Shown here piece by piece: positions 6,301 through 33,917 of a DNA stretch of 35,187 nt. Both the position numbers and the translations under genes were made by a program. Origin of the DNA: Rubrivivax sp. (GTDB lineage: Bacteria; Pseudomonadota; Gammaproteobacteria; Burkholderiales; Burkholderiaceae_C); NCBI GenBank assembly GCA_026125665.1, contig JAHCKS010000052.1, positions 1 to 35,187 on the forward strand, in the 5' to 3' direction. Within the stretch, counting starts at the first letter, position 1; every line of letters starts with the position of its first letter. The notes under the pieces were generated by a model. That model was not told the origin of the DNA, did not search any database, and saw only the letters and a program-made list of their open reading frames with translations.

Positions 6301-8265
6301 ATGAGCTCCTCACCGCTGATGTCGCTGGGCATCAAGGCCATGCAGGCGAACTATGCGTCGCTGCAGGTCACCGGCCACAACATCGCCAATGCCAACGTCG
6401 CCGGCTATTCGCGCCAGCAGGCCGAGCTGGCGACCAGCCAGGGCCAGTTCACCGGCGCCGGCTTCTTCGGCCGCGGCGTCAACGTGGTCAGCGTCACGCG
6501 ATCGCACGACGCCTTCCTGACGCGCGAGGCCGACTACGCCCGCTCGCTGGCCGCCACCGACAGCGCCAAGCTGCAGATGCTGCGCCGCCTGGAGAGCATC
6601 TTCAAGGGCGGCGAGCAGGGCCTGGGGCACGCGGCCAACGAATTCCTCGGCGCGATGACCGACCTGACGACGCGCCCCGACGACCTCGCGGTGCGGCGTG
6701 TCGTGATGGCGCGCGCCGGCGACCTGGCGGCGCGCTTCGCCGAGGCCGGTCGCTCGCTGGACGACGTGCAGGCCGGCGTCACCGCCACGCTGCGCACCGC
6801 GGTCGCCGAGGTCAACAGCCTGGCCAAGGCGATCGCCAGCGCCAACCAGCGCATCGCCGGGCTCACGGGCCTGGGCCAGCCGGCCAACGACCTGCTGGAC
6901 GAGCGCGAACGCCTGATCTCCAAGCTGTCCCAGCATGTCAGCGTCAGCCGTGTCGAGGCGGCGGACGGCACGCAGGCCATCTTCATCGCCGGCGGCCAGC
7001 GCCTGGTGCTGGGCGCCGAGGCGGCGCAGCTGCAGATGCTGCAGGACCCGGCCGACCCGACCCGCTCGGCGGTCGGCCTGGTGGAAGGCAACGTGCGCCG
7101 GCCGCTGGACGAGAACAGCCTGGCCGGCGGCGACATCGCCGGGCTGCTGCGCTTCCAGAATAGCGACCTCGTGCAGGGGCGCAACCTGGTCGGCCAGCTC
7201 GCCGCGGCGGTGGCGGGCGCGGTCAACGAACAGCAGCAGCGCGGCCTGAACCTGCAGCCGCCGCTCGGGCAGGCGGTCTCGCAGCCGCTGTTCGCGGTCG
7301 GCGCGCCGCAGGCGCTGCCCTATGTCGCGAACGCCCGCGACGCCAGCGGCAACCCGGTCGGCAGCGTGCAGCTCACGGTGACCGACGCCGGCGCGCTGCA
7401 GGCCAGCGACTACGAACTGCGCGAGGACCCGGCCAACGCCGGCCAGTGGACGCTGCTGCGCAAGGCCGACGGCCTGCTGCGCAACGTGGCCGACGGCGAC
7501 GAGGTCGACGGCTTGCGCATCAGCTTCGGCAACCCGCCGCCGCAGGCCGGCGACCGCTTCCTGCTGCAGCCGGTCGCGCGCGCGGCCAACGACATGCGCC
7601 GGCTGCTCGACGACCCGCGCGACCTGGCGGCGGCGTCGCCGCTGGTCGCGACCGCGGACGCCGGCAACACCGGCACCGCGCAGGTCTCGTCGCTGGCGAT
7701 CACGAGCTCGCCGCTGCCGGTGGCCGGCGCCACGGCGCGCGTGAGCTTCACCAGCGACAGCGGCGACTACGACTGGGAACTGGTGGACAGCGCGAACAAC
7801 GTGCTCGCCAGCGGCAGCGGCCAGTGGCAGCCCGGGCAGACCATCCCGGCGCCGCCGCAGGACATCAACGGCTTCGCGCTGCAGCTCTCGGGCGTGCCGC
7901 GCAGCGGCGACCTGCTGACCGTGGCGCCCACGCCGCCGGCCGCGATGGCGTCCAACAACGGCAATGCGGTGGCGCTGCTGGCGCTGCGCGACAGCCCCAT
8001 CGTCGCCGGGCGCACCGCCAGCGAGAGCTGGGGGCTGGCGATGGCCGACGTCGGCGTGCGCGTGCAGAGCGCCGCCTCGGCCAGCGACATCTCCACCGCG
8101 GTGGCCAGCCAGGCCGAGTTCTCGCGCACCTCCAAGTCCGGCGTCAACCTCGACGAGGAGGCGGCGCGGCTGATCCACTTCCAGCAGAGCTACCAGGCGG
8201 CGGCCAAGATGCTGCAGGTGGCGCAGTCGCTGTTCGACACGCTGCTGGACGCCGCGGCGCCCTGA
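6301..8265 (+). CDS. flgK: FlgK, hook-filament junction protein 1
   Basis: FlgK is the first of two junction proteins linking hook to filament. The 654-residue product begins with the HAP1 motif (LMSLGIKAMQANYASLQVTGHNIANANVAGYSRQQ). It ends with the paired helix SGVNLDEEAARLIHFQQSYQAAAKMLQVAQSLFDTLL. The central region carries the usual variable beta domains, consistent with a long FlgK. It is 12 bases downstream of flgJ and 22 upstream of flgL. Junction proteins are late flagellar products in most bacteria, but I see no clear separate promoter here. Confidence 0.96.
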   Translation: MSSSPLMSLGIKAMQANYASLQVTGHNIANANVAGYSRQQAELATSQGQFTGAGFFGRGVNVVSVTRSHDAFLTREADYARSLAATDSAKLQMLRRLESIFKGGEQGLGHAANEFLGAMTDLTTRPDDLAVRRVVMARAGDLAARFAEAGRSLDDVQAGVTATLRTAVAEVNSLAKAIASANQRIAGLTGLGQPANDLLDERERLISKLSQHVSVSRVEAADGTQAIFIAGGQRLVLGAEAAQLQMLQDPADPTRSAVGLVEGNVRRPLDENSLAGGDIAGLLRFQNSDLVQGRNLVGQLAAAVAGAVNEQQQRGLNLQPPLGQAVSQPLFAVGAPQALPYVANARDASGNPVGSVQLTVTDAGALQASDYELREDPANAGQWTLLRKADGLLRNVADGDEVDGLRISFGNPPPQAGDRFLLQPVARAANDMRRLLDDPRDLAAASPLVATADAGNTGTAQVSSLAITSSPLPVAGATARVSFTSDSGDYDWELVDSANNVLASGSGQWQPGQTIPAPPQDINGFALQLSGVPRSGDLLTVAPTPPAAMASNNGNAVALLALRDSPIVAGRTASESWGLAMADVGVRVQSAASASDISTAVASQAEFSRTSKSGVNLDEEAARLIHFQQSYQAAAKMLQVAQSLFDTLLDAAAP

Positions 8266-8287
8266 TCCCGACCCTGCCTGAAGCCCC

Positions 8288-9214
8288 ATGCGCGTCACCA
8301 CCCACAACGCCTTCCAGACCTCGATCGCGAACCTGCAGAAGCGCCAGCAGGCGATGGTCGAGTCGCAGGCCCAGCTCACCAGCGGCAAGCGCGTGCTGCG
8401 CCCCAGCGACGACCCGGCGGCGGCCGCCGCGGCCGAACGGGCGCTGGCCGCCTCGTCGCGCGCCGAGGTGCAGCTGCGCGCGCTGGACGCCAGCCGCAAC
8501 GCGATGACGCTGACCGAGGCCGCGCTGGGCGACGCCGGCGAGCTGCTGGCGCAGATCCGCGAACGCATGATCGCCGCCGGCAATGCCAGCTACAGCGACA
8601 GCGACCGCGCGTCGCTGGCCCAGGCCATGCAGGCCCTGCGCGACGACCTGCTCGCGGTGGCCAACCGCAACGACGGCGCCGGGCGCTTCCTGTTCGGCGG
8701 CCAGGGCAGCGACCGCCCGCCGCTGGTCGACGCGCCGGGCGGCGTCGTCTACGCCGGCACCAGCGGCGAGATGCGCGCCGCCTCCGGCGAGAGCAGCCCG
8801 CTGGCGATCGACGGGCGCGCGGTCTGGCTGCAGGCGCCGGACCCGCGCAACCCGGGCAGCACGCTGTCGCTGTTCGACACCCTGGACCGCGTCGTCGGCG
8901 AGCTGATGACGCCCGGGCGCAGCGGCCCCGACATCGCCGCCACCGTGCGCGACGGCCTGGCCGAGATCGACGCCGGCGCGGCCAACCTGTCGGGCTGGCG
9001 CGCGCGCGCCGGCGAGGCGCTCAACCGCATCGACGGCATCGGCGAGCGGCTGGCCCAGGGCAAGCTCGATGCGCAGCGTGAACGCTCGGAGGCCGAGGAC
9101 CTGGACATGGTCGCGGCGATCGCCGACTTCCAGCAGCGCCAGAGCGGCTACGATGCAGCCCTGAAGACCTATTCGATGGTGCAGCGCCTGTCGTTGTTCG
9201 ACTACCTGCGCTGA
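8288..9214 (+). CDS. flgL: FlgL, hook-filament junction protein 2
   Basis: FlgL joins FlgK to the flagellin filament. The 308-residue product starts [43 protein letters not shown], the flagellin-like N-terminal coiled coil of FlgL. It ends [36 protein letters not shown], the matching C-terminal helix. The length is normal. It closes the co-directional flagellar run; a GC-rich hairpin follows at 9226. Confidence 0.95.
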
Positions 9215-9225
9215 TTCCGCGCCGA

Positions 9226-9246
9226 CCGGCGGGGGCGACCCGCCGG
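9226..9246 (+). terminator. GC-rich hairpin after flgL (no U-tract)
   Basis: An 8-bp perfect stem (CCGGCGGG / CCCGCCGG) with a five-base loop lies 11 bases after the flgL stop. No T-run follows, so termination efficiency is doubtful. It may mark the 3' end of the flagellar transcript or only stabilise it. Confidence 0.4.
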
Positions 9247-9288
9247 CGCAACCTGCCGCCGCAACCTGTCGTCCGGGGCCGCCGACGC

Positions 9289-10575
9289 ATGCAAGACCAT
9301 CCCGTGCTGGGCCAGGTGGCCCTGGGCTACAGCCCGATGATCGACCGCCAGCGCAAGGTCGTCGCGACCCGGCTGACCGTCTTCCCGCAGCAGCCCGACG
9401 CGGTGCCCGACGCCGCGGCGCTGCTGCGCGCGCTGCAGGACGTCTGGCCCGCCGAGACCGGCGACGAGCCGCTGAAGCTGACGCTGCGCCCGCTGGACCC
9501 GGCCGCGGTGGCGGTGTCCAAGGGGGCCGCAGCGGCGGGGCCGGCGCCGCGCGGCCTGGTCTCGCTGAACCTGGCCGGCGAGGGCCTGCTGCGCGCCGTG
9601 ATGGCCGCCGCCCCGGCGCCGCAGCTGATGATCGAGGTGCCGGCCTTCATGGCGGGCGACCCGGCCCATGCGCCGCTGCTGCGCGAGCTGCGCGTGGCCG
9701 GCAGCGTGCTGCTGATCAAGGGCCGCCCGCTGGCTCCGCTGCCGGCCGAGGTGCTGGGCTGCTTCTCGCATTCCATCGTCGATGTCTCCGAGGAGCGGCG
9801 CACCGGCGCGCAGAGCTCGGACCACAAGCGCAGCATCAGCACCGTGCAGTCGGGCACGCGCACCGTGGCCGATGTCACGGCCGCCTTCGAGCGCGGCGCC
9901 GTCGCCGTGCTGGGCTGGCCCTTCGACGACCCGCTGCCCAAGTCCAGCGGCCGCAGCCGCATCCCGACCGACGTCAGCACCGTGATGGAGCTCATGCAGG
10001 GTGTCGAGCGCGAGGACCCGGTGCCCAAGCTGGAAGCCGTGCTCAAGCGCGACCCCACGCTGGCCTTCCGGCTGATGCGCTACCTGAACTCGCCGGCCTT
10101 CGGCCTCAGCGTGGAGATCAACTCCTTCAGCCACGCCCTGATGCTGCTGGGCTACAACCGGCTCAAGCGCTGGCTGGCGGTGCTGCTGGCGACCTCGGTC
10201 AAGTCGGCCAACGCGCACCCGCTGATGCACGCCGCGGTGCGCCGCGGCCTGCTGATGGAGGAGCTGGCCAAGACCCAGGCCGACCCCGAGCTGCGCGGCG
10301 AGATGTTCATCTGCGGCGTCTTCTCGCTGCTCGACCGCCTGCTGGAGCAGCCCTTCGCCGAGCTGCTGGGCAACGTGCCGGTGCCCGAGCGCGTGCAGCA
10401 GGCGCTGCGCGGCGACGGCGGCCCGTTCCAGCCCTTCCTGGACCTCGTGCAGGCCATCGAGCAGGAGTCGGTCTTCGACATCCGCGAGTGCACCGAGCGG
10501 CTGCTGCTGGGCCCGGCGGAGGTCAACCGCGCGCTGCTCGCCGCACTGCAGTCGGCGCGGCAGATCGACGGATGA
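9289..10575 (+). CDS. HDOD signalling protein with degenerate EAL-like N-terminal half
   Basis: The 428-residue cytoplasmic protein has the layout of the YuxH/CdgJ-type family. About residues 1-190 form an EAL-like fold in which no EAL, DDFG or other catalytic motif is visible. About residues 195-400 form an HDOD domain ([46 protein letters not shown] ... [20 protein letters not shown]). Proteins of this layout act through protein contacts rather than c-di-GMP hydrolysis, and CdgJ-type members affect motility; a motility role here is inference from the flgL neighbour. The stop overlaps the next gene's start (ATGA at 10572), so it is coupled to the PAS kinase. Confidence 0.85.
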
Positions 10576-23960: not shown

Positions 23961-23977
23961 GGCGGAAGCGGTGAAAT
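23961..23977. repeat. Left attachment site (displaced tRNA-Ser 3' end)
   Basis: GGCGGAAGCGGTGA followed by AAT matches 33829-33845 at 16 of 17 bases. The base before it is T (23960), so on the - strand the sequence ends CGCTTCCGCCA: acceptor strand, discriminator G and an encoded CCA. This is the host tRNA's original 3' end, cut off by the insertion. Confidence 0.88.
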
Positions 23978-24107: not shown

Positions 24108-24131
24108 ATGGGTGTGGACATGGGTAGGCAG
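24108..24131. repeat. Tandem 12-bp TGGGT motif near the left end (candidate integrase arm sites)
   Basis: ATGGGTGTGGAC and ATGGGTAGGCAG stand in tandem with a 12-bp period, followed by a weaker third copy (GTTGGGCGGACT, 24132-region). The first 21 bases match the right-end block at 33766 at 17 positions. The block also encodes the integrase start (MGVDMGRQ). It may be an arm-type binding site at which integrase limits its own synthesis. Confidence 0.4.
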
Positions 24132-25376
24132 GTTGGGCGGACTCTTCACAAGCTGACGGCGAAGGCCGTGGCGGCCGCCTCGCGCCCGGGCTACTACGGC
24201 GACGGCGGTGGCCTGTGGCTGCAGGTGGCGAACGGCGGTACCAAGAGCTGGGTCTTCCGGTTCGCCCGCGCCGGCCGCGCGCGCGAGATGGGCCTCGGCC
24301 CGCTGCACACGCTCGGGCTCGCCGATGCGCGGGGCAGGGCGCAGCAGTGCCGCCAGCAGTTGCTCGACGGGCTCGACCCGATCGAGGCGAGGCGCGCGCA
24401 GCGACTCACAGCAGTGGCCGACGCGGCCAGGCGCATCACGTTCGCCGAGGCCGCGGAGCGCTACGTCGAGGCGCACCGCGCCGGCTGGCGCAACCGCAAG
24501 CACGGCGACCAGTGGACGAACACGCTGACGACCTACGCGGGGCCGGTGTTCGGCGCGCTGCCCGTGCAGGCCGTCGATACGGCGCTCGTGCTGCAGACGC
24601 TCGAGCCGATATGGGCCAGCAAGACCGAGACGGCGAAGCGGCTGCGCGGGCGCATCGAGCTCGTGCTTGACTGGGCCACGGCGCGCGGGTATCGGCAGGG
24701 CGACAACCCCGCGCGATGGCGCGGCCACCTCGACAAGCTGCTACCGGCGCCGAGCAAGGTCCACAAGCGCGAGCATCACGCCGCGCTGCCCTATGCCCGG
24801 ATCGGCGAGTTCATGGCGAAGCTGCGTGCGCAAGAGGGCACCGCGGCGCGCGCCGTCGAGTTCATCATCCTGACGGCTGCACGGACGTCCGAGGCTTTCA
24901 ACGCGACCGCAGGCGAGATCGACCTCGACGCGAAGGTGTGGACGGTGCCGGCCGCGCGGATGAAGGCAGGCAAGGCGCACCGCGTGCCGCTGTCGCGCCA
25001 GGCCGTGAAGCTGCTGCAGGGGCTCGCGGTTGACGAGCACGGCCACCTGTTCCCGGGCGCGAGGGAAGGGCACCCGTTGAGCAACATGGCAGGCCTGAAG
25101 CTGCTGGAACGGATGGGCCTCGGCGACCTGACGGTGCACGGGTTCCGCAGCGCGTTCCGCGACTGGGCCGCCGAACAGACGAACTACGCGCGCGAGGTGG
25201 CCGAGGCCGCGCTCGCGCACGCCATCGGCGACAAGGTTGAGGCCGCCTATCGGCGCGGTGACCTGTTCGCCAAGCGGGCCGCGCTCATGCAGGCATGGGC
25301 CGACTACTGCGACCGGGCGCAGCAGCCCGGGAAGGTGCTGACGATGAAGAACCGCGCCGGGTCGGCTACCCGGTAA
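24108..25376 (+). CDS. int: Tyrosine recombinase, P4-type integrase
   Basis: The 422-residue integrase has an N-terminal DUF4102-type arm-binding region (about 10-90: LTAKAVAAASRPGYYGDGGGLWLQV, WVFRFARAGRAREMGLG). A core-binding helical domain follows (about 110-200), then the catalytic domain (about 225-400). The catalytic set is visible: Arg259 (TAARTSEA), His344 and Arg347 (HGFR), His371 (LAHAIGD) and Tyr381 (EAAYRRGD). This type usually inserts at tRNA 3' ends, which fits the tRNA-Ser boundary. ATG 24108 follows a good promoter; Met5 (24120) is an equally possible start. Confidence 0.96.
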   Translation: MGVDMGRQVGRTLHKLTAKAVAAASRPGYYGDGGGLWLQVANGGTKSWVFRFARAGRAREMGLGPLHTLGLADARGRAQQCRQQLLDGLDPIEARRAQRLTAVADAARRITFAEAAERYVEAHRAGWRNRKHGDQWTNTLTTYAGPVFGALPVQAVDTALVLQTLEPIWASKTETAKRLRGRIELVLDWATARGYRQGDNPARWRGHLDKLLPAPSKVHKREHHAALPYARIGEFMAKLRAQEGTAARAVEFIILTAARTSEAFNATAGEIDLDAKVWTVPAARMKAGKAHRVPLSRQAVKLLQGLAVDEHGHLFPGAREGHPLSNMAGLKLLERMGLGDLTVHGFRSAFRDWAAEQTNYAREVAEAALAHAIGDKVEAAYRRGDLFAKRAALMQAWADYCDRAQQPGKVLTMKNRAGSATR

Positions 25377-26862: not shown

Positions 26863-27069
26863 ATGGACGCCGACAACATGACCGAGCAACTACTCCGACT
26901 GCCTGCAGTGCAGCAGGCCACCGGCTACGGCCGGTCGAGCATCTATGCGCTCATCAAGCGTGGCGCGTTCCCGCAGCCGGTGAAGCTCGCCGGCGGCGGC
27001 GCGGTGGCTTGGCGCTCGAGCGACGTGCAGCGCTGGATCGCCGGGCAGCAGCCGAAGGCGGCCGCGTGA
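26863..27069 (+). CDS. AlpA-family HTH regulator / excisionase-like protein
   Basis: The 68-residue product has the AlpA/MerR-like winged-helix pattern: LPAVQQATGYGRSSIYALIKRGAFPQPVKLAGGGAVAWRSSDVQRWI. Proteins of this family in P4-like elements activate the integrase or act as excisionases. ATG 26863 gives a short N-terminal extension; Met6 (26878) would also work. Its stop overlaps the next start (TGATG). It probably controls the integrase or the downstream replication genes. Confidence 0.9.
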   Translation: MDADNMTEQLLRLPAVQQATGYGRSSIYALIKRGAFPQPVKLAGGGAVAWRSSDVQRWIAGQQPKAAA

Positions 27070-27287: not shown

Positions 27288-27490
27288 ACGCGCCCACGCC
27301 TGACACGGTCGCGCGTGCCGCGCGGTGGGGCCTGCTGATCGAGCCGACCGATGCCGGCTGGCGCCTCGTGCGCGCTTCGGGCGAGGTTGTCTTCTCGGGC
27401 ACCGCAGTCGAGGTGCAGTCCAAGCTGATCGCCGCTGACCTGGCCGCCGTTCATGCGCTGCTGAGGCGGGTGAGGGGGCGCGCGTCGTGA
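27284..27490 (+). CDS. Unrecognised small protein, 68 residues
   Basis: A GTG start at 27284 overlaps the previous stop, and the stop overlaps the next GTG start. The product (MNAPTPDTVARAARWGLLIEPTDAGWRLVRASGEVVFSGTAVEVQSKLIAADLAAVHALL) looks like a small alpha/beta domain with a basic C-terminus. The family is unknown. It is supported by tight coupling and by continuity of the operon rather than by homology. Confidence 0.65.
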   Translation: MNAPTPDTVARAARWGLLIEPTDAGWRLVRASGEVVFSGTAVEVQSKLIAADLAAVHALLRRVRGRAS

Positions 27491-28320
27491 TCAACTGGAA
27501 GGAGCGGCGCCAGCCCTGCCCGCAGTGTGGCCGCGAGGGCGAGAAAGGCTCGCGCGGCACGCTCAGCGCCGGCGCGATGCCAGCGGGGACGAAGTACCCG
27601 GGCCGCCTGCATGCGCACTGCCACCGCTGCGGCTTCAACGCCTGGCCGGACGACGTGCAGGCCGAGCTCGACGCGAAGGCCGTGCACGAGCAGGAGAAGC
27701 GGCACGAGCGGCTATCGCCCTTCGGCCACAAGCTGCTGCGGCAGTGCACGCGGCCGCTCGTCGGCACGGCCCGCGCCTACTTGCAGGCGCGCGAATGCGT
27801 GCTGCCACCAGACGACGGCGACCTCTACTGCCACTCGGCGCTGCCGCACAAGCCGAGCGGCACCGTCGCGCCGGCGCTCGTCGCGCTCGTCACCGACGCG
27901 GTGACCGGCGAGCCGTTGACGCTGCATCGCACCTGGGTCCGCAGCGACGGCACGAAGGCGCCGTTCGAGCGGCCGCGGATGCTGCTACCGCGGCACCGCA
28001 AGGCCGGGGGCGCAGTGCGGCTGTGGCCCGACGAGGCCGTGTCGCATGGCCTGGCCATCGCCGAGGGCGTCGAAACGGCGCTGTCCCTCGCGCATGCCTT
28101 CGCGCCTGTGTGGGCCTGCCTCGACGCTCAGAACCTCGCCGCGTTCCCCGTGCTGGGCGGCATCGAGTGCTTGACGATCGCCGCGGACAACGACGAGGCC
28201 GGGCGCGATGCCGCCGATGCCTGCGCGCGCCGCTGGCACGCCGCAGGGCGAGAAGTGCGCATCGTCATGGCGCCCGAGGCCGGCGCGGACCTCAACGACC
28301 TGGCACGGGAGGCCGCATGA
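27487..28320 (+). CDS. Toprim primase-like protein with zinc finger
   Basis: The 277-residue product has an N-terminal four-Cys zinc-binding pattern (Cys11, Cys14, Cys45, Cys48: CPQC ... CHRC), as in bacterial and phage primases. A DUF7146-like middle follows (about 80-175), then a C-terminal Toprim domain (HGLAIAEGVETALSLA with the conserved Glu, and ADNDEAGRDAADAC with the Asp pair). This layout primes DNA replication in satellites and plasmids. The helicase part is a separate gene that starts at the stop codon (ATGA, 28317), so the pair replaces a fused primase-helicase. The start is GTG at 27487. Confidence 0.87.
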   Translation: MINWKERRQPCPQCGREGEKGSRGTLSAGAMPAGTKYPGRLHAHCHRCGFNAWPDDVQAELDAKAVHEQEKRHERLSPFGHKLLRQCTRPLVGTARAYLQARECVLPPDDGDLYCHSALPHKPSGTVAPALVALVTDAVTGEPLTLHRTWVRSDGTKAPFERPRMLLPRHRKAGGAVRLWPDEAVSHGLAIAEGVETALSLAHAFAPVWACLDAQNLAAFPVLGGIECLTIAADNDEAGRDAADACARRWHAAGREVRIVMAPEAGADLNDLAREAA

Positions 28321-29483
28321 CGGTTGCGAAGCTGCTGCAACTCGTCGACGGCGCCGCCGGCTTCGCGCCTGTGACCGCGCCCGCGCCGCTCGCCGAGCTC
28401 GAGGCCTACTTCGCGCGCTTCGTCGCCTACCCGAGCGAGCACGCCCGTGTCGCTCACACCCTGTGGGCCGCGCATGCGCACCTGATGGACGCGTGGCAGT
28501 CCACGCCGCGCATCGCGTTCCTGAGCCCGGAGCCCGCCAGCGGCAAGAGCCGCGCGCTCGAGATCACCGAGACCGTCGTGCCGAACCCGGTGCAGGCCGT
28601 CAACGTCACGCCGGCCTACCTGTTCCGCAAGATCGGCGAAGGCGACACGCTGCCGACCGTGCTATTCGACGAGGCGGACACGGTGTGGGGGCCGCGGGCC
28701 TCGACCGAGAACGAGGAGCTACGCGGGCTGCTGAACGCTGGCCACCGGCGCGGCGCTGTCGCCGGCCGCTGCATCGTCGTCGGCAAGACCGTTCGCACTG
28801 AGGAGCTGCCGGCCTTCTGCGCCGTCGCGCTGGCCGGGCTGGGCGACCTGCCAGACACCATCCTCACCCGCAGCGTCATCGTGCGCATGCGCCGGCGCGC
28901 GCCTCACGAGGCCGTCGAGCCGTTCAGGCCGCGACTGCACGAGGCTGAGGGGCACGCGCTGCGCAATCGCCTGGCCGGATGGGCGGACAGTGTGCGCGCT
29001 GCGATGGCCGAGGCCCTTCCGACGATGCCGCCCGGCGTGTGCGACCGCGACGCGGATGTGTGGGAGCCGCTGCTCGCGGTGGCGGATGCTGCCGGGGGCG
29101 ACTGGCCGCAGCGCGCCCGCGTGGCGGCTGTTGCGCTTGTTGCGGCTGCTAAAGCCGGGACTCCCAGCCTCGGCGTGCGGCTGCTGGCTGACCTTCGAAC
29201 GGTGTTCGGTGACCGTGAGGTGATGAGTACTGTCGAGATCCTGAAGGACCTGTGCGCGATCGAGGAAAGCCCCTGGGCAGACCTGAAGGGGAAAGCGCTC
29301 GACGCGCGTGGACTCTCCAACCGCCTCAAGGCCTACGGCGTGTCACCCACCACCGTGCGGATCGGTGAACACACACCCAAGGGCTACAGAAAGTCTGACC
29401 TATTCGACACGTGGCAACGCTACCTAGGTGGTCCCGGTATAGGAGTCGCAACGTCCGCCACAAACGCAACGGCGGCCGAGTGA
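28317..29483 (+). CDS. DUF3631-type ATPase, probable replication helicase/loader
   Basis: The 388-residue P-loop protein has a Walker A-like PEPASGKS (71-78, lacking the usual first Gly) and Walker B VLFDEAD (115-121), followed by ARG-rich segments typical of DUF3631. Proteins with this domain follow Toprim primases in integrative elements and are thought to unwind or load at the origin. The C-terminal region has a wHTH-like part (LSNRLKAYGVSPTTVRIGEHTPKGYRKSDLFDTW) and ends with a repeated AT[SN] tripeptide. Those codons form the left half of a 9-bp repeat cluster. It is coupled to the primase by ATGA. Confidence 0.87.
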   Translation: MTVAKLLQLVDGAAGFAPVTAPAPLAELEAYFARFVAYPSEHARVAHTLWAAHAHLMDAWQSTPRIAFLSPEPASGKSRALEITETVVPNPVQAVNVTPAYLFRKIGEGDTLPTVLFDEADTVWGPRASTENEELRGLLNAGHRRGAVAGRCIVVGKTVRTEELPAFCAVALAGLGDLPDTILTRSVIVRMRRRAPHEAVEPFRPRLHEAEGHALRNRLAGWADSVRAAMAEALPTMPPGVCDRDADVWEPLLAVADAAGGDWPQRARVAAVALVAAAKAGTPSLGVRLLADLRTVFGDREVMSTVEILKDLCAIEESPWADLKGKALDARGLSNRLKAYGVSPTTVRIGEHTPKGYRKSDLFDTWQRYLGGPGIGVATSATNATAAE

Positions 29484-29595: not shown

Positions 29596-30015
29596 GTGCC
29601 CCATGTGAACGGCGGGCGCCTGACGCAGACCGCGCTCGCCGCCGCGCTGGGCGTCAGCAAAGCGCGCGTGACGGCGCTGAAGAGGCAGGGCATGCCGGTG
29701 CACGACCTGGGGCTGGCGCTGGCCTGGCGTGGCAGCCACCTCGACCCGGCGCGCACGAAGCAGGGCCGCGCGGACGGGAACACGGGCCTGGCGTTCGGCG
29801 GGCGACCTGCGGCCGAGAAGGTCGCCGACCTGATCGCGCTCGCCGAGGGGGTGGCCGGCGTCATGGTGGACGACGCCGGCCGGCCGCACATCTTCGCCGA
29901 GGGGCTGCCGCATCTGCGCGCACTCCTGCGGGACCTATCGGCCGACGCACTGGCACGCGTGCGCCTACCGCTGCGCTGCTGGCATGCACTGACCGACGAC
30001 GAGGCCGAGACGTGA
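29596..30015 (+). CDS. HTH protein resembling a phage terminase small subunit
   Basis: The 139-residue product has an N-terminal helix-turn-helix (LTQTALAAALGVSKARVTALKRQGMPVHDLGLALAWRGSHLD). This resembles Nu1/TerS-type DNA-recognition domains, where 'GMP' and an 'A.AWR..L' helix often follow the HTH. The C-terminal half (about 75-139) is helical. TerS proteins select the DNA to be packaged. No large terminase is encoded nearby, so it could redirect a helper's enzyme. An AGGTG ribosome site precedes the GTG at 29596. A generic transcription regulator is the alternative. Confidence 0.6.
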   Translation: MPHVNGGRLTQTALAAALGVSKARVTALKRQGMPVHDLGLALAWRGSHLDPARTKQGRADGNTGLAFGGRPAAEKVADLIALAEGVAGVMVDDAGRPHIFAEGLPHLRALLRDLSADALARVRLPLRCWHALTDDEAET

Positions 30016-30416
30016 CCGACCTGCAGGCCCTGGCCCTCGAGGTGCGCGCACTGCGCGCCGAGCTTGCCGAGGTGGGCGCCGACGTGGCCGACCTCGTGCG
30101 CCGCCAGGCGACCCCCGAGGATCGGCGCGCCGGCGCCGTGCTCGTGCCGCTGGCCGGCGAGGTGATGGGCCCACGGGCCTTCGCGCCTGGCGAGTTCGTG
30201 AAGGCCGCCGGCCGGCGCCGTGATGCCGTCGGCCAGGCCGTGCTCGAGACGCTGCACGAGCGCGACCTGCTCGACGATGACGGCGGCTTTCGCACGCTGG
30301 GGCGCCTGTTCCGCCGCGTGCAGCGCATCGCCTTCGATGGCTTCCGGCTGGTGCCCGAGGGCGGCCGGTGGCGCGTCGTTTCCGTGGCTCGAAACGGCGA
30401 ACAGTGGCCCGGCTGA
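30012..30416 (+). CDS. Unrecognised protein with N-terminal coiled coil, 134 residues
   Basis: Start GTG 30012 overlaps the TerS-like stop (GTGA). Residues 1-38 form a heptad-like helix (LQALALEVRALRAELAEVGADVADLVRRQ). Residues 60-134 look like a small winged-helix domain (PGEFVKAAGRRRDAVGQAVLETLHERDLLDDDGGF...). It lies between the TerS-like gene and the capsid gene, so a packaging or scaffold role is possible, but no family supports it. Confidence 0.68.
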   Translation: MTDLQALALEVRALRAELAEVGADVADLVRRQATPEDRRAGAVLVPLAGEVMGPRAFAPGEFVKAAGRRRDAVGQAVLETLHERDLLDDDGGFRTLGRLFRRVQRIAFDGFRLVPEGGRWRVVSVARNGEQWPG

Positions 30417-30431
30417 CGATCCACCGACACC

Positions 30432-31523
30432 ATGCGCCGCATGAGCTTCGCACCTGACACCCCCATCACGCCAGCGGTCGACGCAGTACTGCGCGCTGCC
30501 GAGAGCCAGTCCCCGACGCTGCGCTATCGCGCACGGCAAGAGGCGCCGCCCTTCAACCTTGCCGCGCTGCTGCTGGCGCGCACGGAAGGCAAGCCGCTGC
30601 CCGAGGACGAAGCGACCATGTGCAGCCTCTGGTCGCGCGCGGCCGGGGAGGCCATGTACCTGGGCAGTCACGACTGGATCGGCTGGGGTGCGCTGGCGCA
30701 GGCCCGGGCCATGTCGGTCGAGAGCGGGCCGAAGGGCGGCTACATGATCGGCGGCGCCGTCGGCCCGATGGTGGAAGCCCTGCGCGGCGACAGCATCGCC
30801 ATCGCGCTCGGCGCGCGCGTCGTCTCGGGGTTGACCGAAGGCGTGACCTTCCCGCGCGAGGTTGTCACCGGCACGGCGTCCTGGATCGCCGCCGGCACCG
30901 CGCCGCCGACCGATGCCGAGCCCACGCTGGGCGGCATCTCGGTTGGCGTGCATACGTGTGTCGCGCTGTCGGACTTCAGCCTGCAGCTGCTGCGCTCCGA
31001 GGCAGGCGCCACCTACGCGCCGCGCATCGTCACCGCCAACGCCGGCGAGGCGCTGGACAAGGCCGTGATCAACGGCGCCGGCGGGGCCGAGCCGCTCGGC
31101 ATCCTCCGCACGCCAGGCGTCACGACGGTATCGGGCGCGTCGATCACGTGGGCCACGATCGCCGGCATGCGCGAGACGTCGCTCGCGGCAGGCGCGCGTG
31201 AGGATGCGCTCGTGTGGCTCGGTGCGCCGAACGTGCAGAAGCTGCTGAGCTCGCGCGAGAAGGCCAGCGGCAGCGGGTTCATCTGGGCCAACGGCGCGAT
31301 CGACGGCATCCGCGCCGTGGCGACCAAGCGCGTACCCGATGGCACGCTCGTGCTCGTGCCGATGGGCACGGTTCTGATCGCTGGCTTCGGCCCCGGCCCG
31401 ACGGTCGAGATGAGCCAAAGCTCCGGCTTCAACGTTGCGAGCGCGACGCTGCGCCAGGTGATCACCGCCGACGTGGCGGCGCTCAACCCGGGCGCGATCG
31501 TCGTCGCCTCGAGCATCACCTGA
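30432..31523 (+). CDS. HK97-fold phage major capsid protein
   Basis: The 363-residue product has an N-terminal delta-like region (about 1-95, PPFNLAALLLARTEGKPLPEDEATM). The HK97-type capsid core follows: GGYMIGGAVGPMVEALRGDSIAIALGARVV, EGVTFPREVVTGTASWIAAGTAPP, then the A-domain hallmark AVINGAGGAEPLGILRTPGVTTV and a C-terminal IDGIRAVATKRVPDGTLVLVPMG strand set. It should form the capsid shell. No portal or classical prohead protease gene is present in the element. RBS support is weak; start ATG 30432 lies 15 bases after the previous stop, with Met4 as an alternative. Confidence 0.9.
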   Translation: MRRMSFAPDTPITPAVDAVLRAAESQSPTLRYRARQEAPPFNLAALLLARTEGKPLPEDEATMCSLWSRAAGEAMYLGSHDWIGWGALAQARAMSVESGPKGGYMIGGAVGPMVEALRGDSIAIALGARVVSGLTEGVTFPREVVTGTASWIAAGTAPPTDAEPTLGGISVGVHTCVALSDFSLQLLRSEAGATYAPRIVTANAGEALDKAVINGAGGAEPLGILRTPGVTTVSGASITWATIAGMRETSLAAGAREDALVWLGAPNVQKLLSSREKASGSGFIWANGAIDGIRAVATKRVPDGTLVLVPMGTVLIAGFGPGPTVEMSQSSGFNVASATLRQVITADVAALNPGAIVVASSIT

Positions 31524-31535
31524 CCCTGCGCACAT

Positions 31536-31916
31536 ATGCGCACAGTAGGACACCTCCGCCCCGGCCGAGACAGCACGCGCATAGGCCGGCGCGGAGAGGG
31601 CGCGAGCCCCGACCGTCACGCGATGCGCGCGCACTGGCCCAGCGGCGCGCCGATGGGGCCCTCGCCAGGCGCTGCGCCGGCCGGCCGTACCTTTCGCGGC
31701 GAGGCGGGCAGTGCGACAGGGGGCGACTCTTCCGCCGGGGGCTTCCGCGTCCGGCTGACGCGGGCCACGATCATCGACGGCAGGCGCTTCGCCGCAGGCG
31801 CGCAGCTTCGCGCCGACGCCGAGGGCGCATTGCGGCTCGTGCGCAGCGGCGCCGCCTACCTCGTCGACGCGAACGACCTGCAGCGGCTGGCCGCGAGTGT
31901 GGAGGCGCCGCGGTGA
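31536..31916 (+). CDS. Small capsid-neighbour protein, 126 residues
   Basis: The C-terminal part (about 70-120: FRVRLTRATIIDGRRFAAGAQLRADAEGALRLVRSGAAYLVDANDLQRL) resembles short proteins often coded beside capsid genes. Those share a pattern of 'v.v..p..v.G....pG..v.l....A..L...G.A'. The first about 60 residues are Arg/Gly/Pro-rich and may be disordered, or the true start may be further in (ATG 31623). Its stop overlaps the next GTG start. The exact structural role is unknown. Confidence 0.6.
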   Translation: MRTVGHLRPGRDSTRIGRRGEGASPDRHAMRAHWPSGAPMGPSPGAAPAGRTFRGEAGSATGGDSSAGGFRVRLTRATIIDGRRFAAGAQLRADAEGALRLVRSGAAYLVDANDLQRLAASVEAPR

Positions 31917-33064
31917 CGCTGCTACATGCCGTCGTGCACCGCGCCCGCGCGTTCTTCGCATCCGACTCGACCGGCTACTACTCGCGCGGCGACACGGCCG
32001 ATGTAGTGCGCTGGCCAGGCGGCGCGCCGCTCAACGTGTGCAAGGCGCGCGCGTTCCCGAACATCGGGTGCGTGCTGCTGGCCGCCGGCCGCATCGGCGA
32101 GCACGCGCGCCAGATCGTCGACGGCGCGCATTCCTTCGAGCATGCAGTGCAGCGGCTGCACGAGCTGCTGCCCGCGTTCGTCGTCGGGCCGGGCTCCTAC
32201 CTCGGCCAGCCGCTGCGGCAGTTCGTCGCCCTGGTGGGACCGAGCCGCGACGGCATGTGCGCGGTGCAGTTCCGCAGCGAGGCGGGCTACCGGCCGGAAT
32301 GGACCTTCCCGCAAGCCGGCGGCGCCGCGTGCGTGTGCACCCCTGCGCCTGTGGCTGACCTCTCCGCGCCCGGGTGCCTCGACAGCATGGCCGCCTTCGC
32401 GCGTGCGGCGATCGAGCAGGCTCGCAAGGCTGATGCAGCGGCGCCCTACGGCGGCGCGCTCGTCGTCGGGTGCGTCGACGCTGACGGCGCGATCACGATG
32501 CGCCGCGCCGGCGACCTCGGCATGCCGCCCCGCAGGCCTGGCGCCGATGACCTCGTGTGCCTGCCGTGGCAGTTCGAGCGGCCGCCGGTGCCGAGCGTGG
32601 CGCAGCTTCTCTACGGCGTGGCCACCGAGACCTACGCCGACGAGGGCTCATCGGACTCCGTCACCGTCGCGGTGGATGGCGTGCTCGCGTCCAAGGTGGC
32701 GACGAGCCGCAGCTACACGAACACGACCTTGCGCACGGTCATGGTGCAGTTCGAGTGCAGCATCTTCGGGCTGTACCACTCGGCGGGCTCGCTCACGGCA
32801 CCGCCGACCGACTATCTGGCGATGCAGTGGGTCATCGAGATCAACAGCACGCCGGTGCTGTCGCAGATCTTCTACCAGTCGCAGGGCTCGATTCCGACCT
32901 CATCGGCGAAGGTGGATGGGCGCGACTTCTGGCAGCGCGAGCTCGCCGCGGGCGACTCGATCACCGTGGAGGTGCGCGCCATCGTGGACAACGAGGGCTC
33001 GAACAGCTCGGCCACGGCTGCCTGGGACAAGTCCCGACTGCGCACGAGCATCATCAAAGCGTGA
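31913..33064 (+). CDS. Putative proteasome/HslV-like Ntn hydrolase fused to a beta-rich C-terminal domain
   Basis: The 383-residue product starts GTG-ACG, giving Met-Thr. If Met is removed, Thr becomes residue 1, and Asp then falls exactly at position 17 (AFFASDST), as in HslV and proteasome beta subunits. The segment CKARAFPNIGCVLLAAGR (about 43-60) matches the catalytic-Lys strand pattern of HslV (K-x-R-x5-8-V-x3-A-G), displaced by about ten residues. Alternating strands and a helix (DSMAAFARAAIEQARKAD), then ALVVGCVDADGAITMR, complete an Ntn-like core to about residue 205. Residues 230-383 are beta-rich, with no recognised family. It directly follows the capsid genes and overlaps the gene before it. 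A role in capsid maturation or particle structure is inference. Confidence 0.5.
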   Translation: MTLLHAVVHRARAFFASDSTGYYSRGDTADVVRWPGGAPLNVCKARAFPNIGCVLLAAGRIGEHARQIVDGAHSFEHAVQRLHELLPAFVVGPGSYLGQPLRQFVALVGPSRDGMCAVQFRSEAGYRPEWTFPQAGGAACVCTPAPVADLSAPGCLDSMAAFARAAIEQARKADAAAPYGGALVVGCVDADGAITMRRAGDLGMPPRRPGADDLVCLPWQFERPPVPSVAQLLYGVATETYADEGSSDSVTVAVDGVLASKVATSRSYTNTTLRTVMVQFECSIFGLYHSAGSLTAPPTDYLAMQWVIEINSTPVLSQIFYQSQGSIPTSSAKVDGRDFWQRELAAGDSITVEVRAIVDNEGSNSSATAAWDKSRLRTSIIKA

Positions 33065-33118: not shown

Positions 33119-33757
33119 TCATCCTCGAACAACAAACCGCCTTAGATCCTTGGGCACTGGCTCGGGCTGTGTATACCGCCATGGCCTTGCGTCAGGTAGA
33201 GGAGGAAGCGGCTCGCTCTGCTTCCATCGAGGCTTGCGGTGCCTCTCAAGGCGAAGGTCAATCGCCCGCAGGTCACCGCTGATCAAGTCGATGCCGCGTG
33301 CGTCGAATGCAAGGCCCCGATCCTTGGCCGGCTTGTTGAGGCGCCCTACGTTGCTGATGTGAATCTTGTTCTCGTCGTCGAAGAACAGCACGCGGGTTGA
33401 GCCGTAGTGGGCAATGAAGTCCCGCGCCGTGTTGAGCGTGCCCAGGTGATCAAGCAGCGGCCGGAGATCGGCGGCCCGCTCCGGCGGGATGATGTCGTTC
33501 TCGATGAGCGCTCGAAGCGCCCCCCCGAGTACGCTTGCCCGCATGCCAGAGGCGATCGCGCGGCCTACGTTGCTCGGCATCCCCGCGTACATCAGCAGCG
33601 TGAGGTACAGGGAGTGCTCGGCGTCAGAGAACGCAAGCACCATTCGCCCGACGGCGGCATAGAACGCCGCGCTCTCCTCCTGCACCGCTTTGAGCCGCGC
33701 GTTCAGCGCATCGTCGTTGATGCGGCTCGAAAGCGTGAACCCGCCCGCTGCCCTCAT
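33119..33757 (-). CDS. HEPN-like protein with RX4H motif (possible defence RNase)
   Basis: This 212-residue, mostly helical protein has a core of a long N-terminal helix bundle (about 15-85: FYAAVGRMVLAFSDAEHSLYLTLLMYAGMP). A helix at about 103-117 carries LNTARDFIAH, with Arg112 and His117 in the RX4H arrangement of HEPN ribonucleases; the polar residue after Arg is Asp. The C-terminal tail is Pro/Arg-rich. It stands alone, opposite to all other element genes and beside the right att site, a usual position for accessory or defence cargo. Start ATG 33757 has no strong ribosome site. Confidence 0.55.
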   Translation of the reverse strand: MRAAGGFTLSSRINDDALNARLKAVQEESAAFYAAVGRMVLAFSDAEHSLYLTLLMYAGMPSNVGRAIASGMRASVLGGALRALIENDIIPPERAADLRPLLDHLGTLNTARDFIAHYGSTRVLFFDDENKIHISNVGRLNKPAKDRGLAFDARGIDLISGDLRAIDLRLERHRKPRWKQSEPLPPLPDARPWRYTQPEPVPKDLRRFVVRG

Positions 33758-33828: not shown

Positions 33829-33845
33829 GGCGGAAGCGGTGAGAT
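33829..33845. repeat. Right attachment site (rebuilt tRNA-Ser 3' end)
   Basis: GGCGGAAGCGGTGA then GAT matches the left copy at 16 of 17 bases and forms the acceptor-stem end of the intact tRNA. The base before it is C (33828) rather than T, so the rebuilt gene reads CCG where the displaced host copy reads CCA. A nearby TGAAATCTG at 33813 also occurs across the left core at 23972. Confidence 0.88.
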
Positions 33846-33917
33846 TCGAACTCACGGAGGGGGTGAACCCTCGCCGGTTTTCAAGACCGGTGCCTTCAAC
33901 CGCTCGGCCACGCTTCC
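33831..33917 (-). tRNA. tRNA-Ser (anticodon UGA)
   Basis: On the - strand the gene begins GGAAGCG at 33917 and ends CGCTTCC plus discriminator G at 33831, a perfect 7-bp acceptor stem. The anticodon TGA is at 33881-33883 in a CTTGAAA loop on a CCGGT/ACCGG stem. The long variable arm (CGAGGGTTCACCCCCTC) is diagnostic for serine. The T-arm contains GTTCGAATC. It reads UCA codons (and probably other UCN). The encoded 3' end is CCG, not CCA, because the element replaced it. A -10-like AAAAT lies near 33931-33935 on the - strand. Confidence 0.97.

Follow-up and report, generated by a model that had tools for sequence, protein, structure and literature searches.

What protein is encoded by the last gene of the head operon in a small, capsid-encoding island of Rubrivivax sp., and on what might it act? 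The window analysed here, a stretch of 35,187 nucleotides from this organism, contains an open reading frame, P0001, that an earlier note had read as a proteasome- or HslV-like Ntn hydrolase fused to a beta-rich domain. That note had proposed that the protein could be either an unusual capsid-maturation enzyme or an inactive fold reused as a component of the particle.

The island and the P0001 gene

A 14-bp direct repeat, with copies at 23961 and 33829, delimits the island, which is about 9.87 kb long. Its features are as follows, with the matches or other evidence for each in brackets:

23961-23974, plus strand: attL-like copy of the 14-bp direct repeat (exact match to 33829-33842)
24108-25376, plus strand: tyrosine integrase with arm-binding domain (Arm-DNA-bind_3 8.7e-19, Phage_int_M 1.4e-30, Phage_integrase 3.9e-12)
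26863-27069, plus strand: AlpA-type excisionase/regulator (Phage_AlpA 3.2e-16)
27487-28320, plus strand: primase with Toprim domain (Toprim_3 2.8e-18, DUF7146 6.2e-16, phrog_510 primase 3.6e-29)
28317-29483, plus strand: DUF3631 protein, probable helicase partner (DUF3631 1.3e-63)
29596-30015, plus strand: small HTH protein resembling a terminase small subunit, TerS-like (phrog_57 2.6e-7)
30012-30416, plus strand: small protein (coding-like codon use, 0.321 nats/codon; no PHROG match)
30432-31523, plus strand: HK97-type major capsid protein without a protease domain (Phage_capsid 8.1e-15, phrog_617 1.8e-26)
31536-31916, plus strand: P0003, small protein after the capsid gene (c14 family match; weak codon score)
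31901-31905, plus strand: Shine-Dalgarno sequence of P0001, GGAGG (seven bases upstream of the GTG at 31913)
31913-32605, plus strand: N-terminal region of P0001, proposed proteasome-type Ntn domain (translation and anchored profile; the domain border is a guess)
32606-33064, plus strand: C-terminal beta-rich region of P0001, including the stop codon (strands in a very-low-confidence model; no significant database match)
33119-33757, minus strand: opposite-strand cargo gene with an RX4H motif, RDFIAH (motif only)
33829-33842, plus strand: attR-like copy of the repeat, within the 3′ end of the tRNA gene (exact match to 23961-23974)
33829-33917, minus strand: tRNA-Ser(tga), the integration site (ARAGORN)

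The 14-bp repeat was the longest found between the two flanks searched, and because the next-longest was 13 bp, its weight rests on its place at the 3′ end of the tRNA. In the related genome G795, the tRNA-Ser gene likewise adjoins this diguanylate cyclase gene, but the left flank of the island was not found within the 14 kb fetched, and the comparison therefore showed no empty site.

The earlier note had described a capsid gene next to P0001 and no recognisable prohead protease, and this was confirmed. Family scans of 14 element ORFs (long antisense ORFs lay outside the scan) recognised no large terminase, portal or prohead protease, and phmmer searches with six phage proteases against all frames of the element found none, the best match having an E value of 0.71. 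The small protein P0003, whose true start is probably downstream of 31536, matched a small post-capsid family (c14) of the same-clade phages described below, with E values of 3.2e-5 for the whole protein and 5.8e-6 for its C-terminal part; these values come from a six-sequence search with one of about forty profiles, and the C-terminal part was picked afterwards.

The opposite-strand cargo gene gave no Pfam, PHROG or PADLOC match, and its RX4H motif is one that we take to be HEPN-like. This gene in the window and L026:12761-13399 (minus strand) each encode 212 residues and occupy the corresponding end of their respective, related islands, and both contain such a motif (RDFIAH and RNSLAH, respectively). 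The L026 protein gave weak matches to Csm6-HEPN (E 0.13) and CARF-HEPN (E 0.044), and the two genes are possible defence cargo.

P0001 itself is an ORF of 383 aa with a GTG start at 31913, and its translation begins M-T-L-L-H-A-V-V-H-R-A-R-A-F-F-A-S-D-S. P0001 overlaps P0003 by four bases (GTGA), which include the stop codon of the latter, and this overlap together with the strong Shine-Dalgarno sequence couples P0001 to the operon. Codon use in the P0001 frame scored +0.274 nats/codon, and the five other frames of the same stretch were negative; the range for six other element genes was 0.24-0.36 nats/codon (the score having been trained on five of these six), and P0003 scored 0.038. Because of the GGAGG sequence, the GTGA overlap and the coding-like codon use in frame, the start codon is well supported, and P0001 is a real gene.

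The residues on which the Ntn proposal was founded are Thr2 (codon 31916-31918), Asp18 (31964-31966), which is residue 17 counted from the Thr, and Lys44 (32042-32044), which is residue 43 from the Thr and lies in CKARAFPNIGCVLLAAGR. The Met-Thr start and the Asp at 17 from Thr1 were both borne out by the translation and the evidence for the start, and Lys44 was found where the earlier note had placed it, about ten residues later than Lys33. Residues 1-232 contain two lysines only, at 44 and 172, and by our own estimate the chance of finding some Lys near the place of Lys33 is roughly one in ten.

Likeness of the P0001 N-terminus to Ntn hydrolases

The likeness to Ntn hydrolases was quantitatively evaluated with start-anchored profiles. 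Family sets from genomes of the host's order comprised 18 HslV proteins, 30 beta-proteobacterial proteasome homologues (BPH; the 28 with an MTT or VTT start were used) and 31 Anbu proteins, and a phage Ntn profile was made from 92 sequences from which redundancy was not removed. Start codons of the fetched loci and the window, in whichever frame, served as controls, with several per ORF and hence not independent; the loci with known Ntn genes (L001, L004, L067, L082, L103-L195, and L224 upward) were omitted from the controls.

On a three-family profile (HslV, BPH and Anbu; columns 2-22), P0001 ranked tenth of 15,440 starts, itself counted. The top start on this profile is that of a real phage Ntn protein (L067:3493-4086), from a phage with a related capsid protein; this protein matched phrog_1040, annotated as 'peptidase HslV family', at 4.2e-19, and a profile of six such phage proteins matched a BPH crystal-structure sequence at 1.6e-5. 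On the 92-sequence phage profile, the P0001 head (residues 2-21) scored 9.0, a value reached by none of 16,240 controls in a first null and by none of 18,850 control starts in a second, in which the best control scored 3.9. Shuffles of the first 59 residues of P0001 reached 9.0 in 3 of 200,000 cases, or in 14 of 200,000 when T2 was fixed. Thr or Ser is the second residue in 2,652 controls, none of which reached the P0001 score for columns 3-21. By comparison, the mean head scores on the phage profile were 13.4 for BPH, 10.5 for HslV and -2.3 for Anbu, which places P0001 close to the first two and above the third. Using the other profiles, the numbers of controls (of 16,240) that reached the P0001 head score were 17 for BPH, 2 for Anbu and 401 for HslV.

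Unconstrained hhalign alignments placed residues 1-19 or 1-21 of P0001 in exact register with the BPH, Anbu, combined and phage profiles, and gave no in-register alignment on the HslV profile. The probabilities for the N-terminal half on the family profiles were 0.1-0.7%, all below 1%, and those for the C-terminal half, a negative control, were 0.0-0.5%, so that the N-terminal half differed in register only. Known pairs in the same set-up included much better ones (one HslV on BPH, 94%; one BPH on HslV, 32%; BPH on Anbu, 11.6%; Anbu on BPH, 3.5%) and equally poor ones (Anbu and HslV, 0.1% in either direction). Both the anchored profile tests and the in-register hhalign matches, obtained with three of four family profiles (all but HslV), thus support the idea of an Ntn- or HslV-like N-terminus.

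This support did not extend to the rest of the domain. When residues 23-205 were scored on a profile of all four families, no signal was obtained: 42 of 150 shuffles did at least as well, as did 198 of 331 control proteins. P0001 was also absent at E 1 from searches with HMMs of the phage, BPH, Anbu and HslV sets with filters off. Such tests of the remainder are insensitive for some true relatives, for example Anbu on the phage profile: the median ranks of positive controls on that profile were 0 for BPH, 1,718 for HslV and 6,478 for Anbu. For the block around Lys44, 644 of 16,240 controls reached the P0001 score on the phage profile, with a best offset of 7, whereas Lys44 would require 10. 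The Anbu profile gave a best offset of 11, which put the Lys of that family on Lys44 with a score at chance (6,569 of 16,240), and BPH was also at chance (11,580 of 16,240). The HslV value of 10,340 of 16,240 is from an unfair test, anchored on the first, non-catalytic Lys (29); the head scores are unaffected by this.

Structure prediction and direct comparison were of limited use. AlphaFold gave a pLDDT of 36.6 for the single sequence and 42.3 when 16 phage Ntn sequences were added, and in the latter model the confidence rose in two places only, the first hairpin (block means of 54 and 51) and the stretch of residues 181-210 (63-72). The second run was a biased test because MAFFT, with these 16 sequences, had aligned the P0001 N-terminus alone convincingly and left Lys44 unaligned. 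In a PDB fold search with the 42.3 model, no entry reached E 0.001 and the 50 best of 143 rows included no Ntn protein, although a fold search with so poor a model says little. Smith-Waterman comparison with six HslV proteins and one BPH gave no match, and z was 2.3 for one Anbu protein, on a non-homologous stretch; such z values mean little because an antisense Ala-rich ORF reached z 3.8.

P0001 is also an orphan in the collections that were searched. It matched no Pfam, PHROG (E up to 1) or PADLOC model and no PDB sequence, and a single NCBIfam line (E 0.14) is a chance match. In tblastn searches of phages and plasmids with the whole protein, and of phages with its halves, one chance match of 49 residues (E 0.6) was obtained. 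Pattern scans of viral contigs and genome contigs, the reach of which is close relatives, found P0001 only. No homologue was found in 399 genomes of the order, where two weak spurious matches were antisense to ordinary genes, or in 399 genomes of the family, and the six-frame ORFs of related loci gave no usable relative.

We regard it as rather unlikely that P0001 is an accessory protein of another kind, with a chance resemblance to Ntn proteins in its first 21 residues. This reading accords with the silence of residues 23-205 and of ordinary HMM searches, with the lack of a confident model or a homologue, and with the fact that the gene behind the capsid gene differs among sister elements. 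However, its N-terminus scores well beyond all controls on the phage profile and close to their edge on BPH and Anbu. We therefore consider it likely that P0001 has a proteasome-type Ntn fold with Thr2 as the nucleophile, and take the protein to be a probable, remote proteasome relative that bears an additional domain.

In the host genome (G000), matches to three chromosomal proteasome relatives (BPH, HslV and Anbu) were located at C1:78241-78822, C68:53502-54020 and C221:8482-9216, and the BPH match (C1:78241-78822) has one in-frame TGA. The candidate identity of P0001 as HslV itself was rejected: the host has its own HslV, and HslV ranks P0001 worst of the four head profiles.

Ntn genes in phages and islands with related capsid proteins

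In the clade to which the capsid protein of the element belongs, phages encode the capsid protein as a fusion with a protease. The capsid scan yielded 71 viral contigs, and 49 of the 76 capsid ORFs in the loci, contig-truncated ones included, are 605-697 aa long. The presence of Peptidase_S78 was confirmed in all five fusions scanned (L067, L082, L224, L225 and L038). In four same-clade phages (L067, L082, L224 and L225), the capsid gene is followed at a short distance by a genuine Ntn gene of the BPH/HslV-like type, and the capsid protein of each of the four is fused to Peptidase_S78. The gene order in L067, L082 and L183 (the L224 contig) is capsid, c5, c2, Ntn gene and c6, and in L225 the capsid gene is just upstream of the Ntn gene.

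An alignment scan for the phage Ntn family gave 274 relatives, of which the best 80 were retained; 9 of the 77 loci L224-L300 had a clade capsid gene within the fetched stretch. Of ten large phages with an Ntn gene that were inspected, nine are annotated; in these nine, all genes within 1-3 kb of the Ntn gene are listed as hypothetical or have non-structural products, and the annotation names no capsid gene. Because of these two results, we conclude that the link between Ntn and capsid genes is a trait of this clade and not of the whole phage Ntn family.

Two further arrangements were observed among these loci. In L184 (the L226 contig) and L185, the Ntn gene is located among later structural genes, between families c33 and c34, and the HslV-like gene of Pseudoalteromonas phage J2-1 (L190:1001-2167) encodes 388 residues and also has a long C-terminal extension.

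Protease-less capsid genes are present in the satellite-like relatives L025, L026 and L068; L024 is cut by the contig start. All-frame ORFs of L025, L026 and L068 gave no convincing match to the four Ntn HMMs (best E 0.49) or to six proteases (best E 0.02), and no start codon in these three loci, which are part of the 18,850-start null, reached the P0001 head score. The gene after the capsid gene varies among the sisters, being tape-measure-like in L025 and L068, glycosyltransferase-like in L026 (a weak match, E 0.0086, below the cut-off) and an OLD-like nuclease gene in L196. The L025 gene, the last of that locus (7566-9614, minus strand), matched Pfam at 3.8e-7 and phrog_8462 at 4.2e-48; L068:7352-8764 (plus strand) is in the same sequence cluster and has no significant family match alone. 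No large terminase or portal was seen in the L025 and L068 gene calls, and these islands, with a lone capsid gene and a tape-measure-like gene, may set their own head and tail size. The L196 element encodes a DUF3631 protein that is 62% identical, a small terminase subunit, a separate Peptidase_S78, the capsid protein and the OLD-like nuclease, with a second capsid-like fragment at 1420-1968. The AAA-TOPRIM OLD-like nuclease gene (L196:12329-14239, minus strand) ends its contig and is again cargo after a capsid gene.

These comparisons bear on the proposal that P0001 is a capsid-maturation enzyme that replaces the missing prohead protease and cleaves an N-terminal capsid arm of about 90 residues. 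Such an arm is suggested by the matches to the nearest other capsid proteins, which begin at residue 82-92, and P0001 is downstream in the same operon of an element in which no Peptidase_S78-like protein was found. Nevertheless, we consider this role very unlikely because the Ntn gene coexists with a prohead protease in all four of the scanned same-clade phages that carry it shortly after the capsid gene, where the Ntn enzyme probably has another job, and because the loss of a recognised protease in the sisters L025, L026 and L068 was not accompanied by an Ntn gene. Of the earlier interpretation as a whole, the N-terminus stood in the anchored profiles, the full domain was without sequence support and the capsid-maturation role became disfavoured.

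A possible role and its relation to known systems

A further alternative is that P0001 is a catalytically dead Ntn fold that contributes to the structure or decoration of the particle, its C-terminal domain acting as an anchor or fibre. The uncertain alignment of Lys44, the location in the head operon and the beta-rich extension are compatible with this, but the retention of Thr2 and Asp18 in an otherwise extremely diverged sequence suggests selection on catalysis, and we regard a dead fold as quite improbable.

Our best explanation, on which our judgement is evenly balanced, is that P0001 is a highly divergent accessory Ntn hydrolase of the proteasome type, with a C-terminal beta-rich extension, encoded by the last head-operon gene of a satellite-like island at tRNA-Ser. 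In Ntn hydrolases, the exposure of the Thr by removal of the Met and the Asp/Lys chemistry are established. In P0001, methionine aminopeptidase would expose the Thr, which would then act as the nucleophile together with Asp17 and Lys43 (counted from the Thr), and the C-terminal domain may dock the enzyme on its target. Translation with the head genes would place the protein in the lytic phase, and it might then cut a host, helper or particle protein, as opposed to the satellite's own capsid arm.

The nearest phage counterparts are the phrog_1040 proteins of the L067 type, which share with P0001 the N-terminal MT, D18, S19 and G21 in register and, in L067, L082, L224 and L225, are likewise encoded shortly after the capsid gene. 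In contrast to these proteins, P0001 has double the length, no GFTSSFRMGQ block and some ten additional residues ahead of the candidate Lys, and it does not match the phrog_1040 profile (E up to 1). Two features are common to P0001 and BPH, for example the L121 copy, namely the MT start and, at 16-19, the residues ASDS, although there is no overall sequence match.

The island also resembles satellites. Satellites of the P4-like type have an arm-domain integrase, AlpA, a primase and a tRNA site, all of which are found in the element. Unlike them, it carries a capsid gene, and no Psu, Sid or Delta was among its family matches. Capsid-forming satellites are known (PMC10690885, PMC11389934), and the cfPICI and Mulch/Flayer satellites described in PMC10690885 are, as here, small elements with their own capsid gene. 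The cfPICI definition given there includes a portal, a head protease and both terminase subunits; of these, only a TerS-like gene was recognised among the 14 element ORFs scanned, and no portal, connector, head protease or large terminase.

Phage proteasome homologues, and other proteasome homologues with C-terminal extensions, have already been published (PMC8665760). That article reports 22 new proteasome-like subfamilies, including PPH of phages, RPC and FC4, with a triad of Thr1/Ser1, Asp17 and Lys33, and notes extreme divergence. RPC is described there as a PPH-related group from proteobacteria with a C-terminal extension, and FC4 as having C-terminal domains similar to phage tail proteins. 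P0001 fits this picture of a proteasome-like domain with an extra C-terminal domain, the likeness to RPC and FC4 being one of description and not of sequence. The phrog_1040 proteins of the L067 type perhaps correspond to the AAH group of PMC8665760; the sections of the article consulted assign no function to its phage groups, PPH and AAH. A tblastn search of phages with BPH gave eight records, none of which was usable as PPH.

Among the titles and abstract openings consulted, which cover the literature in part, no paper was found that ties an Ntn- or HslV-like phage protein to a capsid-encoding satellite. A broader proposal, which we consider unlikely as it stands, is that a capsid-encoding satellite has a proteasome-type peptidase of its own that is fused to a domain for docking on the particle and works on or inside the virus-like particle.

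The element is one of a set of islands whose capsid gene stands alone, no large terminase or portal having been recognised beside it; in two of these islands there is also a tape-measure-like gene. Together, this tiny capsid-encoding satellite and the same-clade phages that have a bona fide Ntn gene in nearly the same place provide a simple setting in which to ask what such enzymes cleave.
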